From Flavobacterium sp. YO12 (GTDB lineage: Bacteria; Bacteroidota; Bacteroidia; Flavobacteriales; Flavobacteriaceae): a stretch of DNA of 64,000 bases. The notes beneath the pieces were generated by a model. It ran no database searches and was not told the origin of the DNA. It saw only the letters and a list, made by a program, of their open reading frames with translations. The position numbers were made by a program, and so were the translations under genes. The DNA lies in assembly GCF_004119495.1 (NCBI RefSeq), contig NZ_NRQU01000003.1:1-64000 (forward strand). Direction: 5' to 3'. This document shows, one piece after another, positions 42,680 to 52,972 of the stretch; within the stretch, counting starts at the first letter, position 1, and each line of letters starts with the position of its first letter.

Positions 42680-43090
42680 TTAACAAAACTCATTAAATGC
42701 ATCTTGCAAATTCTCAGCGATCATTTCAGCTGGACGACCTTCAATGTGGTGACGCTCTAACATGTGAACCAATTCTCCGTTTTTGAACAAAGCCATAGAT
42801 GGCGATGATGGAGGAAATGGGAACATATGTTGTCTTGCAGCATCAACAGCTTCTTTGTCTACACCAGCAAAAACTGTAATAAGATGATCTGGTTTTTTAG
42901 CACCTTCTAAACTCATTTTTGCTCCTGGACGTGCATTTCTTGCAGCACAACCACAAACAGAGTTTACAACAACTAAAGTGGTACCTTCAGCTTTGATAGC
43001 ATTATCTACAGCCTCAGCACTATGTAAATCTTGAAAACCTGCAGCAGTTAATTCAGCTTGCATTGGTTTTACCATTTCTTCTGGATACAT
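42680..43090 (-). CDS. BrxA/BrxB-family bacilliredoxin
   Basis: A 136-residue thioredoxin-fold protein of the YphP/YqiW (BrxA/BrxB) family, with the CGC redox motif in [14 protein letters not shown] and the conserved [16 protein letters not shown] stretch. In Firmicutes these remove bacillithiol from proteins; whether this organism makes bacillithiol cannot be seen here. Monocistronic. Confidence 0.92.
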
Positions 43091-45298: not shown

Positions 45299-45763
45299 TT
45301 ATTCTTCCAATTTTTCTAAAAGAAGTTTAAAATCTTTTGGACTTAAATAGTTGTTGTACTGAAGAATGATTTCATAATTCTCATTCAAAACGCATAAAAC
45401 CGGATATACAATTTGGTTGTTAATTGTTCCAAGCTGCAAAGCCAGTTCATGAACGCCAACATTATTTCCTGAAGGTTTGTATTTAAATATCTTATTGTTA
45501 AAAGCAATATTGCGTTTTTCTTCGGCATTAAAATCAATGAAATAGAAATTTGAATTTAATATTTCAATGATTTCTTTATTCTTAAAAGTTGTCGCTTTCA
45601 TTCTTTGGCAAAACTGACACCAATCAGTATGAATGAAAACGATGATTTTTCTTTTTTGAATTTGCTGCAAACTATCTACTTCTTCAAAAGTTCTACTCTT
45701 TAACTGGCAGAATCCTGTTGAAGTTATTCCTAACAAGCAAATTAAGAGAAATAGCTTTTTCAT
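45299..45763 (-). CDS. Periplasmic thioredoxin-like protein
   Basis: A 154-residue protein with a signal peptide (MKKLFLLICLLGITSTGFCQ) and a thioredoxin fold with CQFC redox motif (HTDWCQFCQRM), of the thioredoxin_7/DUF255-like type. Probably a thiol oxidoreductase in the periplasm. ATG 45763 chosen over a GTG at 45781 since it begins the signal peptide. It is upstream of crtY in the same unit; the TonB receptor is further upstream. Confidence 0.87.
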   Translation of the reverse strand: MKKLFLLICLLGITSTGFCQLKSRTFEEVDSLQQIQKRKIIVFIHTDWCQFCQRMKATTFKNKEIIEILNSNFYFIDFNAEEKRNIAFNNKIFKYKPSGNNVGVHELALQLGTINNQIVYPVLCVLNENYEIILQYNNYLSPKDFKLLLEKLEE

Positions 45764-45801
45764 TGTTTTGTTTTTTTTCACAAATTAAAAAAGATTTTTT
45801 C

Positions 45802-45938: not shown

Positions 45939-48200
45939 TTATCTCAAAGTATATCGTAATCCTACAAAACCACGAATAGTTTGGTTTTGCCCGTAAACAT
46001 AAGTTGTATCAAAAGTTAAACCGTATGGATTATCAGGCGTAACCAATACTTTTCCAGCCGAATCATATTGTACATTTTTATCGAAAGGATCGTTTGCTCT
46101 CGAAATCAAAAATGGATTATTCCGCATTGGAGTAAAATTAAGCAGATTTTTTACTCCGCCGTAAAGCTCAAAATTTTTCCATCCTGTATACGTAAACTGA
46201 ATATTTTGAATACTGTACCAAGGCGAGTTTGGATTTCTTGGATCATATTCGTTCAGCAAAGGCAGCTTCATTGGGCTGTACACATTTCCGGTATAATCTA
46301 ATAACAAATTCCAAGGTTCAATCTTATACGAAATACTCCAAGTTCCCGTAAAGTTTTCTGTTAAAAAAGGGCGTGAAGCAATTCCATCTTCAACATTTTT
46401 ATTATCCAAAAAAGTCGCGCCGAGAATAAATTTCAATCCATTGGTAAAATTCACATCAACATTAGTGCTGATTCCTTGACTTAAAGCATATCCATCAATA
46501 TTATCATAAATAATTTTGTTAGGATCAGTCTCGTAATCTGAAATTATTTTATTGCTGAATCGTGTATAAAAAGCAGTCGTTTCAATACCCATAAATGTTC
46601 CATTTCCGAAATTAATCTTCTGAATATAATTCAAATTAACATTTACAGATTTTTCTGGTTTCAAATCATTCTGAATTACAACATCTCGAGAACCTGTAAG
46701 TGCTGCGTGATCTTCGGTAAATAAATTCACAACTCTAAATCCTGTTCCAGCATTCAATCTAAAAATAGTATTTTCATTTGCTTTTAGGCGATAAGCAAAT
46801 CTTGGCGTAAAAATCGAACCATGAATGGAGTTATAATCATAGCGCGCTCCTAACAAAATTTGGCTTTTGGGAGAAATTGTAATTTCATCCTGAACAAAAA
46901 TTCCAGGAAGCCAAGTACTTTCAGCTTCTTTTGTTGCCGTAGTGTTATCATCATAATAAGAATATCGAGTGGCAATTCCGGCAAGGAAATCATTTCTGCC
47001 TATTTTTTTATCCCAAGTCAATTGCAGAAAACCAATTTTTTGATTTGCTATATACGAAGTTGTTCCGTAACGACTGTCCTGATAATGCACGTTTCCAGAG
47101 AAAGAAAGCATTAATTTCTCTTCAAACGGTAATTGATAACTTCCTATCAACTCTCCTCTTTTTGTATAAATACTTTCGCCATAAATTTCGTCGCCGCCTC
47201 GATATTTTTTCTCCCATCTTACATCTCCACCCCACCGATCTTCATACATTCCGCGTGCTGCAATGGTAAACAAACGATTATTATTTCGACGAAAACTCCA
47301 TTTATTAAAAACTGAAATACGATCAGAAAGCGTGACATCTGTAAAATTATCCTTGTCTTTATCGATAACCTGATCATAATTGAAGTAATTAATTCCTAAA
47401 AGTGAAGTTGCTTTTTTTCCAACATTAAATTTCATTCCCAAATCAAGATTATTCTCAAAATAAGTTGTTGTAAAATAATCTGCAGAGAACATTGGTGCAT
47501 TTGTTGGATTTTTAGTGATAATATTAATTAATCCGCCAACCGCCTCACTTCCGTAAAGAGAAGAAGCGGGACCTTTTACAATTTCAATTCTCTCGACCAG
47601 CGAATTTGGTATTCCTGACAAACCATAAACTGTCGAAAGACTGCTTACAATTGGCATTCCATCAATCAAAACTAAAGTATAAGGCCCTTCCAAACCGTTT
47701 ATATGAATATCACCCGTGTTGCAAACGCCGCAATTGAGCTGAGGACGAACGCCATTTACATTTTGAAGTGCATCGTAAATACTTGGTGTTGGGTTTTTCT
47801 TGAAGAAAACGGGCGAATAAACCTCAACTGGAACAGCACTTTCTAATCGCTTTACGGCTTTTAAAGTCCCAGAAACTACTACTTCATTAAGCTGATTCTC
47901 ATTATCGGTCAATTCAAAATCATAAGATTGAATAGAATCTTTAGTTACTTCTATTTTCTTTTTCAGGGTCTGAAATCCCATTTGAGAAACCTGAATGGTG
48001 TAATTCCCAAAAGCAACATTCTCAAAAGCATAAAACCCTAAACTGTCCGTAACCGTTTTTTGCTTTGAACCTAATAAATGAACATTTGCGGCTTGTATTT
48101 TCCTTCCTTCTCCAGATATAAAACCCGATACTTTTGTAGTTTCTTGTGCAAAAGAAAAGTGTAAATTAAATAATATCAATATCCAAATTGAATTTTTCAT
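45939..48200 (-). CDS. TonB-dependent outer-membrane receptor
   Basis: A 753-residue receptor for active import across the outer membrane. It has a signal peptide (to about FSFAQ), a carboxypeptidase-regulatory-like domain (VSGFISGEGRKIQAANVHLLGS), a plug with the sequence GLEGPYTLVLIDGMPIVSSL and ERIEIVKGPASSLYGSEAVGGLINIITK, and a long barrel ending in aromatic residues. The plug carries the pair NCGVCNTGDIHI, cysteines that might bind metal. Substrate is unknown; metal or metallophore transport is plausible. ATG 48200 gives the signal peptide. Confidence 0.9.
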   Translation of the reverse strand: MKNSIWILILFNLHFSFAQETTKVSGFISGEGRKIQAANVHLLGSKQKTVTDSLGFYAFENVAFGNYTIQVSQMGFQTLKKKIEVTKDSIQSYDFELTDNENQLNEVVVSGTLKAVKRLESAVPVEVYSPVFFKKNPTPSIYDALQNVNGVRPQLNCGVCNTGDIHINGLEGPYTLVLIDGMPIVSSLSTVYGLSGIPNSLVERIEIVKGPASSLYGSEAVGGLINIITKNPTNAPMFSADYFTTTYFENNLDLGMKFNVGKKATSLLGINYFNYDQVIDKDKDNFTDVTLSDRISVFNKWSFRRNNNRLFTIAARGMYEDRWGGDVRWEKKYRGGDEIYGESIYTKRGELIGSYQLPFEEKLMLSFSGNVHYQDSRYGTTSYIANQKIGFLQLTWDKKIGRNDFLAGIATRYSYYDDNTTATKEAESTWLPGIFVQDEITISPKSQILLGARYDYNSIHGSIFTPRFAYRLKANENTIFRLNAGTGFRVVNLFTEDHAALTGSRDVVIQNDLKPEKSVNVNLNYIQKINFGNGTFMGIETTAFYTRFSNKIISDYETDPNKIIYDNIDGYALSQGISTNVDVNFTNGLKFILGATFLDNKNVEDGIASRPFLTENFTGTWSISYKIEPWNLLLDYTGNVYSPMKLPLLNEYDPRNPNSPWYSIQNIQFTYTGWKNFELYGGVKNLLNFTPMRNNPFLISRANDPFDKNVQYDSAGKVLVTPDNPYGLTFDTTYVYGQNQTIRGFVGLRYTLR

Positions 48201-48524: not shown

Positions 48525-49430
48525 TCAAAAATCCTCATCAATAAGTTCTTTATTAATCACAGCTCCGGCAAACGATCCTGTAGAAACTGCTATTGAGACA
48601 GATCGCATTTGAGTCGTGCAATCTCCACTTGCATAAATACCGGCAATATTTGTTTTTTGCATTGCATCTACTTTTAGCAAACCTTGCTCGTTTAAATCAC
48701 AACCTAATGTTACGGGCAATGAACAATGTTGTTCTAAAGGCGGTTTCGCATACACAGCCTTTACAGCCGTTTTTTTACCATTTTTGAAGACAATATATTC
48801 CACATATCCATTTGTATGCTCAAAAGCTTCAATTTCATCCACAAATAGGATAACTCCATGTTTTTTTAAAGCATCAATTTGATCTAAAGTCAAAGTTGAT
48901 TTTCCGTTCGTACATAATCTAAGATCTTTTGTCCAATTTGAAATCAGCTTTGCATATTCAAAAGCCATTTCACCATTAGCAATAATTGCCGTTTTTTCGT
49001 TCTTAACTTCATAACCATGACAATACGGACAATGCAAAACTGAAATTCCCCAGCAATCTGCAAAACCTTTAATTTCAGGAAGTAAATCTTTAACGCCAGT
49101 TGCAAACAAGACTTTTCTAACGCCGAAAACTTCACCAGATTCTGTTGAAATTTCAAATCCGTTTTCTCTCTTAACCGCTCCTACCGCAAGTCCATTATAA
49201 AAATGAATCGTTTTATAAAGATCAACCTGCAATTTGGCTTTCGCCGAAATAACAGCCGGTTTTTCACCGTCCTGCGTAATAAAATTATGAGAATAAGGTG
49301 TCTGCCTGTTACAAGGCAAACCACTATCGATAACCAAAACCTGACGCAGAGCGCGCCCCAAACTCATTGCCGCTGACAAACCGCTATAACTGCCGCCAAC
49401 GATAATTACATCAAAATTTTTCTGTTTCAT
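48525..49430 (-). CDS. NAD(P)/FAD-dependent oxidoreductase, thioredoxin-reductase fold
   Basis: A 301-residue flavoprotein of the thioredoxin-reductase type: FAD motif DVIIVGGSYSGLSAAMSLGR, redox-active CPYC (LHCPYCHGYEV), NAD(P)-binding region and C-terminal GIYASGDCTTQMRSVSIAVSTGSFAG. It starts 12 bases after merC, so the two genes form an operon under the shared control region near 49.8 kb. Its substrate could be a thiol protein or a small disulfide. Confidence 0.88.
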   Translation of the reverse strand: MKQKNFDVIIVGGSYSGLSAAMSLGRALRQVLVIDSGLPCNRQTPYSHNFITQDGEKPAVISAKAKLQVDLYKTIHFYNGLAVGAVKRENGFEISTESGEVFGVRKVLFATGVKDLLPEIKGFADCWGISVLHCPYCHGYEVKNEKTAIIANGEMAFEYAKLISNWTKDLRLCTNGKSTLTLDQIDALKKHGVILFVDEIEAFEHTNGYVEYIVFKNGKKTAVKAVYAKPPLEQHCSLPVTLGCDLNEQGLLKVDAMQKTNIAGIYASGDCTTQMRSVSIAVSTGSFAGAVINKELIDEDF

Positions 49431-49442
49431 AACAATGCTTTT

Positions 49443-49796
49443 TTAATGATTTTGTTTTTTGTGTAATTTGTAATTGATCAAATGCCCGATAATCATTCCG
49501 ATGCCTCCCAAATAAATTAAATCTGAATGTATGTCTAACACCAGCTCGCTTAAAATGCTTATCCAGATCAACATCATTGAAACAACTAGAATTGTTGAGA
49601 CTAAAAGAGCAGATTTTTTAATAATTTTGAAGATGGCAAATAAACCTATTGAAGCAAATAATAAATCGATAATTGGATTGTGACTTAAGCCTAAAGGCAA
49701 AATGGTTAAGAGTGGAAAAATTAAACAATGAACCAGGCAAATAGTTGCACTCGAAATTCCTAAAATATCGTAAAAGGATGTTGTTGTTTTCTTCAT
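49443..49796 (-). CDS. MerC-domain membrane protein
   Basis: A 117-residue protein with about four transmembrane segments. The first contains LVHCLIFPLL, the MerC hallmark (His-Cys after ILGISSATICLVHC). MerC proteins move Hg(II), but many MerC relatives in Bacteroidota lie in metal-homeostasis loci without mer genes. Its divergence from a Fur-family regulator with shared palindromes suggests metal-regulated expression; zinc is a possibility. Confidence 0.85.
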   Translation of the reverse strand: MKKTTTSFYDILGISSATICLVHCLIFPLLTILPLGLSHNPIIDLLFASIGLFAIFKIIKKSALLVSTILVVSMMLIWISILSELVLDIHSDLIYLGGIGMIIGHLINYKLHKKQNH

Positions 49797-49815
49797 TTCT
49801 TGTATTTTTGCTTAA

Positions 49816-49836
49816 TGCAATTTTGTTGCAAATATA
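49816..49836 (-). promoter_or_regulatory. merC -7 box overlapped by operator site 1
   Basis: Inverted repeat TGCAA-TTTTG-TTGCA (49816-49830) overlaps the start of minus-strand TATATTTG (49829-49836). Half-sites follow GCAAY-N3-GTTGC, as in site 2. Confidence 0.6.
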
Positions 49837-49849
49837 CACATTAAAACCA

Positions 49850-49868
49850 AACGCAACATTGTTGCGTT
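49850..49868. promoter_or_regulatory. Operator site 2 of the Fur-family/merC region
   Basis: Perfect 8-bp inverted repeat AACGCAAC-ATT-GTTGCGTT. It lies 36 bp centre-to-centre from site 1, would cover the merC -33 region, and is just upstream of the regulator's start codon. Confidence 0.65.
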
Positions 49869-49890
49869 AATTTTTTAATTTATAAATAGA

Positions 49891-50283
49891 ATGAAAACCA
49901 CACGCAATACTACAGCAAAGACAGCCGTTTTAGAGATTTTTGAGAAATCTAAAACAGCTCTGTCTCATACCGAAATTCAAAAACAATTGAACGAGATATG
50001 CGATCGTGTCACTACTTATCGAATTTTAGACCGTCTGGTTAACGATGATATTATTCATAAAATTTCAAATCTAGACGGCACAGTAAAATATGCAAAATGC
50101 AATCATTCGCATCAGCGTGTCCATATACATAACCATGCCCATTTTAGCTGTGAAAACTGTCATGAAATTACCTGCCTCGAAAATGTAAAGCCAAGTTATA
50201 TTATGCCGCATAATTATAAAGTAAACGAGATAAATTTTACATTATCAGGATTATGTCCAAATTGTTTAAATTCTAACATCTAA
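49891..50283 (+). CDS. Fur-family metalloregulator (Zur-like)
   Basis: A 130-residue Fur-superfamily repressor: N-terminal winged helix with VTTYRILDRLVNDDIIHKI, the HIHNHAHFSCENC metal and dimerisation stretch, and two structural CxxC pairs (CENC, CPNC). Such proteins bind palindromes when metal-loaded; the divergent region carries two matching palindromes. The missing leading part of the N-terminal helix and the context with MerC suggest Zur rather than Fur, but this is not decided. Confidence 0.87.
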   Translation: MKTTRNTTAKTAVLEIFEKSKTALSHTEIQKQLNEICDRVTTYRILDRLVNDDIIHKISNLDGTVKYAKCNHSHQRVHIHNHAHFSCENCHEITCLENVKPSYIMPHNYKVNEINFTLSGLCPNCLNSNI

Positions 50284-50357: not shown

Positions 50358-52226
50358 ATGACCAAATCTTTAGAAGAGGTAAACCAATCGGTTGCTACAG
50401 AACATAAAAAAACAGGTTTTAGAAAAATATTAGCCTTTCTAGGCCCCGCATATCTAGTAAGTGTTGGATACATGGATCCCGGAAACTGGGCAACGGATAT
50501 CGCCGGCGGAAGTCAATTTGGTTACACTTTAGTCTGGGTTTTATTAATGAGTAACTTAATGGCTTTGTTGCTGCAAAGCTTAAGTGCGCGCTTAGGAATT
50601 GTAACGCAGCGCGATCTTGCGCAGGCTTCAAGAGAAACCTATTCAAAATTCATTAATTACATTTTATATTTTCTGGCAGAAATTGCCATTGCCGCCTGTG
50701 ATCTTGCAGAAGTTCTTGGAATGGCGATTGGAATTAATTTATTGTTTGGAATTCCACTTTTCGAAGGTGTTTTAATAACGGTATTAGATACTTTTCTTCT
50801 CTTATTCTTAATAAATAAAGGAATTCGAAAAATGGAGGCCTTTATAATTGTTTTGGTCGCAATTATTGGTCTTTCTTTCATTTTTGAAATGATTTTTGCA
50901 CAACCTGAAGTTCCTAAAATCCTTGCGGGCCTTATTCCATCAATTCCAAATTCGGCAGCTTTATACATCGCGATCGGAATTATTGGAGCGACTGTAATGC
51001 CGCACAATTTATATCTGCATTCTTCTTTAGTACAAACTAGAAAATTTGACCGAAGTCCAGCAGGCATAAAACAAGCTTTAAAATACAATTTAATCGATTC
51101 TACGATTGCCTTAAACTTAGCTTTCTTCGTAAACGCCGCAATTTTAATTCTTGCAGCTGCAACTTTTCATAAAAACGGAATGTTTGAGGTTGCTGAAATA
51201 CAAGACGCACATCAATTTCTAGAACCACTATTAGGAACAAAATGGGCTCCAATTTTATTTGCTGTTGCCCTTATTGCTGCAGGACAAAGTTCTACTGTAA
51301 CGGGAACTCTTGCCGGACAAATTGTAATGGAAGGTTATTTGCATTTGCGTATTCAGCCTTGGGTTCGTCGTATTCTAACTCGTTTAATTGCAATTGTTCC
51401 CGCGTTAATTGTTATATCAATTTATGGCGAAAGTGTTACTGGAAAATTGTTAATCTTAAGTCAGGTAATTTTAAGTCTTCAGCTTGGCTTTGCTATTATT
51501 CCTTTAATTCATTTTGTGAGTGATAAATCTAAAATGAATGGTTTTCATATCTCTAAAACTACTCAAGCCGTTTCTTGGATCATTGCTGCGATCATTGTTT
51601 CATTAAATGCTAAATTGGTTTATGACGAAATAACTACTTGGCTTGCTACTTCAGAGCATCCCGCAATAATATGGTTTACGGTTGTTCCGCTTGCTTTTGG
51701 TTTTCTAGCTTTGTTACTTTATATCATTGTAAAACCATTTATTGCCAGAGCAAAATCAAACATCGAGAATCACTCTCCACACCATCTTAAATTACAATAT
51801 GTTCAAAAAGAGATCTACAACAAGAAAAACATAGCCATTTCTGTTGATTTTTCTAAGGCTGATGAAGCGGCGCTTAACAATGCGTTTGAACTGGGCGGAA
51901 TTAACGCTCAGTACACTTTAATTCATATTGTTGAAACAGTAGGAGCATTAATGTACGGAGGAAATATTGCCGACCATGAAACTACTATAGACGGAAAATT
52001 ATTGCTGGAATATAAAGATATGCTTTCGCAGAAAGGGTTTAAAATCGAAACTGAACTTGGTTTTGGAAAACCTAACACTGTGATTCCAAATATTGTTAAT
52101 CAAGGAAATTTTGATGTTTTAGTTATGGGAACTCACGGCCACACCGGATTAAAAGATATTCTTTTTGGCACTACAGTAGACAAACTCAGACATAAAATTT
52201 CGATACCTTTGTTGATTGTTAAATGA
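50358..52226 (+). CDS. mntH: Nramp divalent-metal transporter fused to a UspA domain
   Basis: A 622-residue protein. Residues about 25-460 are an Nramp Mn/Fe transporter with the DPGNWATD metal motif in TM1 and MPHNLYLHSSLVQTR in TM6. Residues about 490-622 are a universal stress protein domain ending GTHGHTGLKDILFGTTVDKLRH, which has the nucleotide-binding G-x2-G-x9-G-S/T pattern. The fusion suggests cytoplasmic nucleotide control of metal uptake; that is inference. The gene for an MntR-type regulator follows. Confidence 0.92.
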   Translation: MTKSLEEVNQSVATEHKKTGFRKILAFLGPAYLVSVGYMDPGNWATDIAGGSQFGYTLVWVLLMSNLMALLLQSLSARLGIVTQRDLAQASRETYSKFINYILYFLAEIAIAACDLAEVLGMAIGINLLFGIPLFEGVLITVLDTFLLLFLINKGIRKMEAFIIVLVAIIGLSFIFEMIFAQPEVPKILAGLIPSIPNSAALYIAIGIIGATVMPHNLYLHSSLVQTRKFDRSPAGIKQALKYNLIDSTIALNLAFFVNAAILILAAATFHKNGMFEVAEIQDAHQFLEPLLGTKWAPILFAVALIAAGQSSTVTGTLAGQIVMEGYLHLRIQPWVRRILTRLIAIVPALIVISIYGESVTGKLLILSQVILSLQLGFAIIPLIHFVSDKSKMNGFHISKTTQAVSWIIAAIIVSLNAKLVYDEITTWLATSEHPAIIWFTVVPLAFGFLALLLYIIVKPFIARAKSNIENHSPHHLKLQYVQKEIYNKKNIAISVDFSKADEAALNNAFELGGINAQYTLIHIVETVGALMYGGNIADHETTIDGKLLLEYKDMLSQKGFKIETELGFGKPNTVIPNIVNQGNFDVLVMGTHGHTGLKDILFGTTVDKLRHKISIPLLIVK

Positions 52227-52249
52227 AATAGGTTCAAAGCCCCAAAGTA

Positions 52250-52300
52250 ACAAAGTGACAAAGGTTTTTTCTTTGCTCCTTTGCTCCTTTGTCACTTTGT
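52250..52300. repeat. Inverted CAAAG/CTTTG repeat between mntH and mntR
   Basis: Perfect 15-bp arms (52250-52264, 52286-52300), with extra CAAAG and CTTTG words outside and in the loop. The hairpin ends 19 bases before the mntR ATG. Confidence 0.75.
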
Positions 52301-52318
52301 CCCTCAAAAAGAAAAAAA

Positions 52319-52972
52319 ATGACTTTTTCAGAAGAAAACTACCTTAAATCTATATACCACCTTACAGCTTCTCTTGAAACTGAGGTGAGCACGAATGCTA
52401 TTGCCGAAATGATGGAAACTAAAGCTTCATCTGTTACCGATATGCTTAAAAAGTTAGCCGAGAAAGATTTGGTTAACTATAAAAAATATCAAGGTGTTTC
52501 GTTAACTGAAAATGGAAAACTGGCGGCAAAAATGATTGTTAGAAAGCATCGCTTATGGGAGGTTTTTCTTGTTGAAAAACTAAATTTCAGCTGGGATGAG
52601 GTTCATGATATTGCAGAACAATTAGAACACATAAAATCTGAGCAGCTAATAAATCGTTTGGATGATTTTCTTGGAAATCCGACTGAAGATCCACACGGAG
52701 ATCCAATTCCAGATGCAAATGGCCGAATTATTAAGATCGAGAAACAACTGCTTTCTGAATTATCCGAAAATCAAACAGGCGTTTGTGTTGGGGTAAAAGA
52801 CACTTCATCAGAATTCTTGAAGTATCTGGACAAGCAAGGAATTGCTCTAGGTTCTAAAATAGAATTTCTTTCTAAAGAATCTTTTGATTTATCGGTTAAA
52901 ATAAAGGTTGACAACAAAGAATTGTCTATTTCGAACAAAATTGCTTCTAATTTATTTGTGAAATTAGTGTAG
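52319..52972 (+). CDS. mntR: DtxR/MntR-family metal-dependent regulator
   Basis: A 217-residue protein: winged-helix DNA-binding domain (MTFSEENYLKSIYHL, TNAIAEMMETKASSVTDMLKKLAEKDLVNY), metal-binding dimerisation domain (RKHRLWEVFLVEKLNFSW, DEVHDIAEQLEHIKSEQL), then the PTEDPHGDPIP loop and a FeoA/SH3-like C-terminal domain. It most likely represses the upstream Nramp gene under metal-replete conditions. ATG 52319 is chosen over a TTG within the repeat. Confidence 0.92.
   Translation: MTFSEENYLKSIYHLTASLETEVSTNAIAEMMETKASSVTDMLKKLAEKDLVNYKKYQGVSLTENGKLAAKMIVRKHRLWEVFLVEKLNFSWDEVHDIAEQLEHIKSEQLINRLDDFLGNPTEDPHGDPIPDANGRIIKIEKQLLSELSENQTGVCVGVKDTSSEFLKYLDKQGIALGSKIEFLSKESFDLSVKIKVDNKELSISNKIASNLFVKLV

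Follow-up and report, generated by a model that had tools for sequence, protein, structure and literature searches.

Two palindromes occupy the short gap between a merC-type gene and a divergent Fur-family gene of Flavobacterium sp. YO12, and the locus raises the question of which regulator binds them and which metal that regulator senses. The gap (94 bp, positions 49797–49890 of the 64,000-nucleotide stretch analyzed, hereafter the window) is bounded at each edge by the ATG of a divergent open reading frame (ORF), one encoding a MerC-family membrane protein (49443..49796, minus strand; 117 aa) and the other a Fur-family regulator (49891..50283, plus strand; 130 aa). Site 1 (49816..49830, no strand assigned) reads TGCAATTTTGTTGCA, and site 2 (49850..49868, no strand assigned) reads AACGCAACATTGTTGCGTT, a perfect 9-1-9 palindrome located 22 bp 5′ of the regulator ATG. 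The coordinates in the original prediction, its pattern GCAAY-N3-GTTGC, which fits both sites as read from the sequence, and its spacing of 36 bp, given by the cores at 49817 and 49853, were right to the base, and site 2 lies 5′ of the regulator start where it had been placed. The relaxed form GCAAY-N3-RTTGC was not found in the window beyond sites 1 and 2; when the gap was dinucleotide-shuffled 20,000 times, two copies of it never arose, and one or more arose in 0.4% of the shuffles. We consider it likely, from sequence comparison, that the 130-aa protein is a Zur of Flavobacteriaceae type and that the 2 palindromes are its operators, through which it would repress the merC–oxidoreductase pair and its own gene, designated zur below.

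Site 1 runs into the predicted merC promoter. The −7 element (49829..49836, minus strand; TATATTTG) fits TAnnTTTG and has 2 bases in common with site 1, an overlap that had been foreseen in the original prediction. The minus-strand promoter sequence is TATATTTGCAACAAAATTGCA, and the −7 consensus of the main Bacteroidota sigma factor has been described as TANNTTTG (PMC6847099; also PMC9723704). Transcription of merC would start near 49824, inside site 1, which would leave a leader of 28 nt. A possible −33 TTG (49854..49856, minus strand) lies inside site 2, 17 nt 5′ of the −7 element; this assignment is a weak one, because the −33 motif is weak in F. johnsoniae (PMC6847099). No clear promoter of the regulator gene was seen in the gap sequence.

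The locus was compared with its counterparts in close relatives, taken as the best 80 of 302 from a contig scan (76 Flavobacterium, 3 Flavobacteriaceae bacterium, and 1 [Flexibacter]). In all of these best 80 loci, the TonB receptor, MerC, the regulator, mntH, and mntR were matched in one order. The oxidoreductase gene lies directly 3′ of merC in 65 of the best 80, a COG0523 gene is located between the two in 11, and an oxidoreductase match is absent in 4. Exactly 2 boxes are present in 78 of the best 80 (spacing of 36 bp in 61 loci and 37 bp in 17), counts that are not independent because the rows are close relatives; the 2 exceptions (L197 and L217) have one altered base in site 1. TAnnTTTGC abuts site 1 in 78 of the same best 80 loci. 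One carrier of the locus is a strain of F. johnsoniae (L171). Over the 61 rows with a spacing of 36 bp, the conservation of the commonest base is 0.988 and 0.970 for the 2 sites and 0.813 for the spacer (0.739 without the −7 box), and it is 0.676 for the third codon positions of zur (80 rows, the best 80 of 302).

Distant copies of the regulator are a stronger test of conservation than close relatives. An orthologue at E ≤ 1e-25 was found in only 76 of 249 genus genomes, and the divergent set comprises 40 stretches around genus copies of 40–89% identity, 2 of which come from one genome. Two boxes are present in 29 of these 40 copies, one in 8, and none in 3; the spacing in the two-box copies is 36 bp (9 copies), 37 bp (7), 38 bp (12), or 40 bp (1). 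Among the copies that are boxless by pattern, L147 has a looser TGCAA-N5-TTGCA and L155 has a TCGCA variant; in L136, no box was seen by eye. The divergent neighbour in the distant orthologues is MerC with COG0523 or MerC with the oxidoreductase, with the boxes mostly kept; other divergent neighbours are COG0523 alone, the oxidoreductase alone, and a small His/Cys-rich protein with a TonB receptor, and in L131, MerC and GTP cyclohydrolase I face the regulator across a gap with one box. According to Pfam, the cyclohydrolase of these relatives is of the PF01227 type and COG0523 is PF02492. At the family level (19 loci), 7 loci have 2 boxes, 9 have one, and 3 have none. TAnnTTTGC abuts the upstream site in 30 of the 37 box-bearing divergent genus copies and in 8 of the 16 box-bearing family loci. 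Sequence comparison establishes that the boxes, with their overlap of the −7 element, are conserved and are linked to the regulator gene and its predicted targets. In most orthologues, the boxes track the regulator gene even where the gene across the gap has been swapped, which strongly supports the co-regulated and autoregulated Fur-family locus that had been proposed.

We propose that each TGCAAY-N3-RTTGCA box would hold a zinc-loaded Zur dimer. The end of the merC −7 element and the predicted start lie within site 1, and the possible −33 TTG lies within site 2, so that bound Zur would keep RNA polymerase off the merC–oxidoreductase promoter; site 2 would also let Zur limit its own synthesis. 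Under zinc shortage, Zur would be released and merC, the oxidoreductase gene, and zur would be switched on, together with at least one unlinked operon on contig C7 (encoding a small His/Cys-rich protein, an ABC ATPase, and a TonB receptor; described below). Promoter geometry offers an explanation for the usual box spacing of 36–38 bp: the TTG of site 2 (at the spacing minus 19) falls 17–19 nt before TAnnTTTG wherever this element abuts site 1. A spacing set by the cooperative binding of 2 dimers was also considered, and promoter geometry would explain the spacing equally well. Box and Bacteroidota promoter element run together (TAnnTTTG into TTTGCAAC), an arrangement that may account for the near-fixed spacing of the pair.

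The regulator belongs to the Fur family (PF01475, 26.1 bits; cut-off 23.1). Its 2 CxxC pairs (Cys87, Cys90, Cys122, and Cys125), which correspond to the structural zinc site of Zurs, are invariant in 18 of 18 diverse rows, as is Cys70, which aligns with Cys88 of Escherichia coli Zur, the site-B residue described as best conserved among Zurs (PMC4219657). His56 aligns with E. coli Zur His77 and is invariant in the 18 rows. At the place of Cys70, the aligned Zur chains have a cysteine and the aligned Fur chain of Bacillus cereus lacks one. A structure model of moderate confidence (mean pLDDT 72.3) gave a fold list in which ranks 1–14 are Fur-family chains with Zur first; ranks 1–3 are all Zurs, from S. 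coelicolor (Z 11.7), E. coli (Z 11.6), and Xanthomonas (Z 11.1), with rmsds of 4.3, 3.9, and 3.6, respectively, over 116–119 residues. The fourth Zur row (Z 9.9) ties with the first Fur (Z 9.4), and the Zurs of M. tuberculosis (2o03, Z 8.1) and of cyanobacteria (7ne9, Z 7.5) rank low. Sequence alone did not distinguish Zur from Fur in the PDB ranking: the best match is Fur 9ire with 24.3 bits versus 20.7 for E. coli Zur (45.8 versus 44.8 by profile). The NCBIfam matches, all far below their cut-offs, are PerR (first), Fur, and Zur; the regulator is not an E. coli-type Zur equivalog, because it scored 26.4 bits for NF008646 against a cut-off of 167. Compared with E. coli Zur (4MTD/4MTE; Gilston et al. 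2014, PMC4219657), it has the Fur-family fold, both CxxC pairs, and a cysteine and a histidine that align with Cys88 and His77. It differs in its identity (23% in the fold match) and in the counterparts of His96 and Glu111, which have no certain placing; His78, His80, His82, and His84 compete in the alignment for the place of His96.

The boxes themselves have a published counterpart. A predicted Zur box, ATGCAACNNNGTTGCAT, precedes znuABC-zur of 2 Desulfovibrio (Rodionov et al. 2004, PMC545781), with the same half-sites, the same N3 spacing, a Fur-family regulator encoded with the box, and predicted zinc control; the likeness is one of boxes, drawn from the box sequence. In contrast to the znuABC target of Desulfovibrio, the predicted targets here, in another phylum, are merC, an oxidoreductase gene, and a TonB-receptor operon, and most orthologues have box pairs. 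COG0523 genes have been placed downstream of Zur sites in Firmicutes, proteobacteria, and cyanobacteria (Haas et al. 2009, PMC2770081), and the loci of relatives likewise have a COG0523 GTPase beside a Zur-type box. Unlike those systems, the YO12 locus has no COG0523 gene, and 2 weak PF02492 matches were found elsewhere in the genome. The same paper describes zinc-independent FolE2 as the Zur-controlled GTP cyclohydrolase isozyme, whereas the cyclohydrolase in the relatives is the ordinary PF01227 type; a term search of its main text returned neither "Bacteroid" nor "Flavobacter". Zinc is the best reading of the metal because the Zur-type cysteine, the Zur-first fold list, the published Zur box, and the company of COG0523 and GTP cyclohydrolase I in relatives combine in its favor.

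These comparisons make two rival readings less likely, one on the metal and one on the regulator that binds. The first holds that the protein is a Fur-family regulator sensing manganese, iron, or peroxide (of the Mur, Fur, or PerR type), whose locus would belong, with mntH and mntR next to it, to a manganese module; we regard it as unlikely. An Nramp gene fused to a universal stress domain (mntH-Usp), followed by an MntR/DtxR-type gene, occupies 50358–52972 of the window, and this arrangement 3′ of the regulator recurs in all 80 of the best 80 of 302 loci, as such a module would have it; the Fur chain at the head of the PDB sequence matches and the sub-cut-off PerR match at the head of the NCBIfam list point the same way. 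However, no box was found at mntH or mntR within the window, in distant orthologues it is COG0523, the oxidoreductase, and MerC that the boxes accompany, and the site-B cysteine is that of the aligned Zur chains and not of the aligned Fur, with Zur heading the fold list. With Zur as the preferred reading, the constant position of mntH and mntR behind the regulator predicts that zinc control and manganese control lie side by side.

The second rival reading concerns the identity of the binder. The genome encodes a second Fur-type protein (contig C1, C1:71517–71894, L040) with the same YxxC feature, and the palindromes could be bound mainly by this C1 Cys-type Fur-family protein or by both regulators, which we judge improbable. 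The shared YxxC is in its favor, as is a similar perfect palindrome, TGCAATCCGATTGCA (C1:78401–78413; L275:2402), which lies approximately 6.5 kb from the C1 gene and 26 bp 5′ of a small His-rich ORF. However, the boxes stay beside the local regulator gene in 80 loci (the best 80 of 302) and in most divergent copies, and the C1 type branches separately (support 91/92) in a tree built from 37 Fur-type proteins, its gene lying among genes that resemble metal efflux genes as judged by eye. The same tree requires 2 changes for the merC-linked rows and leaves 13 of its 34 inner forks open. The C1 protein may be a sister regulator that uses a similar box.

If the local Zur is the binder, its main predicted target is merC. 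The MerC-family protein passes the PF03203 cut-off (45.5 bits; cut-off 27.6) and carries a CxxHC motif; Met1, Asp10, Gly13, Cys20, His23, Cys24, Pro28, Asp44, and His105 do not vary among the 13 homologues compared, all of them from zur loci. Judged from the sequence, the CxxHC motif with the conserved aspartate and histidine residues would fit a metal. The model is that of a small helical protein (mean pLDDT 74.1, pTM 0.49). An FAD-dependent oxidoreductase of thiol-disulfide type (48525..49430, minus strand; CPYCHG; PF07992) is encoded 12 bp 3′ of merC, and the 2 genes are probably in one operon. The TonB-dependent receptor gene downstream (45939..48200, minus strand), with a homologue in all 80 of the best 80 of 302 loci, is a possible further member without a box of its own. 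A thiol function is plausible for the oxidoreductase, because its closest PDB chains by sequence are 3fbs (a putative thioredoxin reductase), 4fk1, DepH, and GliT; that it keeps metal-binding thiols in the right state is a guess. Two further proteins are encoded near the locus, one at 42680–43090 of the window with a CGCA motif, which to us recalls bacilliredoxins, and one at 45299–45781, which we take to be thioredoxin-like. A PADLOC search found nothing.

The names of MerC and the oxidoreductase would suggest a module for mercury or thiol-stress detoxification, and the Pfam MerC match and the closeness of the oxidoreductase to DepH/GliT and thioredoxin reductases agree with them; against this very improbable reading, the regulator is of Fur type, and the COG0523, cyclohydrolase, and TonB-receptor genes point to metal shortage. 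No mer genes were noticed beside merC. The protein resembles the MerC mercury-resistance family in its Pfam match and its small helical model, and departs from that family in its linkage to a Fur-type regulator and zinc-type genes. Of the "metal or thiol stress module" offered in the original prediction, the metal part narrows to probable zinc limitation, since COG0523 GTPases and TonB receptors occupy the same regulated places, the regulator has the Zur-type cysteine, and the box matches a published Zur box; the thiol part persists as the plausible function of the oxidoreductase.

The predicted Zur control raises the question of what MerC would do for zinc. In the YO12 genome, no ZnuA-family match was found (0 matches; the control search was positive in 11 of 14 known genomes) and the ZIP family is represented by one frame, so MerC could be a Zur-controlled inner-membrane route. 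More broadly, and tentatively, the MerC-family proteins of Flavobacteriaceae may be Zur-controlled inner-membrane zinc importers that stand in for ZnuABC, for which an unlinked merC with its own Zur-type box in a relative (L251) also serves as a basis. If true, a family annotated as mercury resistance would move to zinc nutrition. Zur regulons that combine an autoregulated locus with lineage-specific targets are a known kind, and what surprises here is MerC as a predicted target. Among the open-licence matches listed, none dealt with a Zur regulon in Flavobacterium or with Zur control of MerC; the main texts of the Zur reviews PMC6103462 and PMC8000910 hold no word starting with Bacteroid or Flavobacter by term counts, and a zinc paper on Riemerella (Flavobacteriales) treats ZntR and makes no mention of MerC (PMC11960050). 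The predicted sites define a candidate zinc regulon that can be put to the test in a large bacterial group from soil, fresh water, and fish.

A genome-wide motif search, which had been put forward as a check of the 2 palindromes, extended the predicted regulon beyond the locus. The relaxed form occurs at 24 places in the genome (4.89 Mb, 172 contigs), 17 of which are inside ORFs of at least 212 aa. A further operon, on contig C7, also carries the box. That 17 of the 24 places lie inside long ORFs and are probably chance might suggest chance palindromes at the locus as well, a reading with practically no probability left given conservation and spacing in 78 of the best 80 of 302 loci versus 1 background match in 980,466 bp of the same 80 loci. 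The C7 box (C7:28469), accompanied by a −7 element, marks a third such promoter in the genome and is located approximately 53 bp 5′ of the gene for the small His/Cys-rich protein (sHC), which is followed by the genes for the ABC ATPase and the TonB receptor (TBDR). Of 101 genus genomes, 95 contain a match to sHC, and 30 sHC loci were compared. All 12 of these loci with the order sHC-ABC-TBDR have a box 32–66 bp upstream, versus none of the other 18. A zur orthologue is present in 12 of 12 genomes with sHC-ABC-TBDR versus 31 of 101 (p 1.2e-7, uncorrected for kinship). Copies of sHC that face zur share the zur boxes (L125, L130, L134, and L137), and a copy in genome G172 has TGCAACAGGGTTGCA just 5′. 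The oxidoreductase gene of L125 and L130 lies apart from the zur gap and has a box or box pair to itself. In L126 and L138, a second box pair lies 5′ of a lipoprotein-like gene.

At the family level, 15 genomes, picked because their zur loci showed boxes, were scanned with TGCAACNNNGTTGC. The scan gave 40 strand matches, with 7 for the reversed control, and 26 distinct places, 18 of which are directly 5′ of a zur gene. Six of the other 8 places were inspected; they are 5′ of the unlinked merC (L251), of an oxidoreductase gene in L266 that is approximately 2.5 kb away from zur, of a lipoprotein-like gene (L253), and of a second zur-like gene (L258), or inside ORFs (L254 and L257). Among 61 genus genomes, exact 15-mers were found in 11 of 17 with a regulator orthologue versus 6 of 44 without, a comparison that is weak because coding DNA can yield such matches by chance. 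In the YO12 genome, an exact TGCAAC-N3-GTTGCA 15-mer occurs only once (C18:68273–68287, L036) and has a TAnnTTTG box; it was rejected as a regulon member, being inside a 469-aa ORF.

Two minor observations concern the relatives. The lipoprotein-like genes behind Zur-type boxes (L126:6025–6773, L138:4102–4776, and L253:1501–2271) have no Pfam match and possibly encode zinc-related surface proteins. Sibling regulators in L008, L010, L011, L013, L017, L020, and other loci mostly face an oxidoreductase gene across variant boxes in which TCGCA replaces TTGCA, for example, TTGCAACAAAGTCGCAA in L013, and these variants hint at a shift in DNA specificity.
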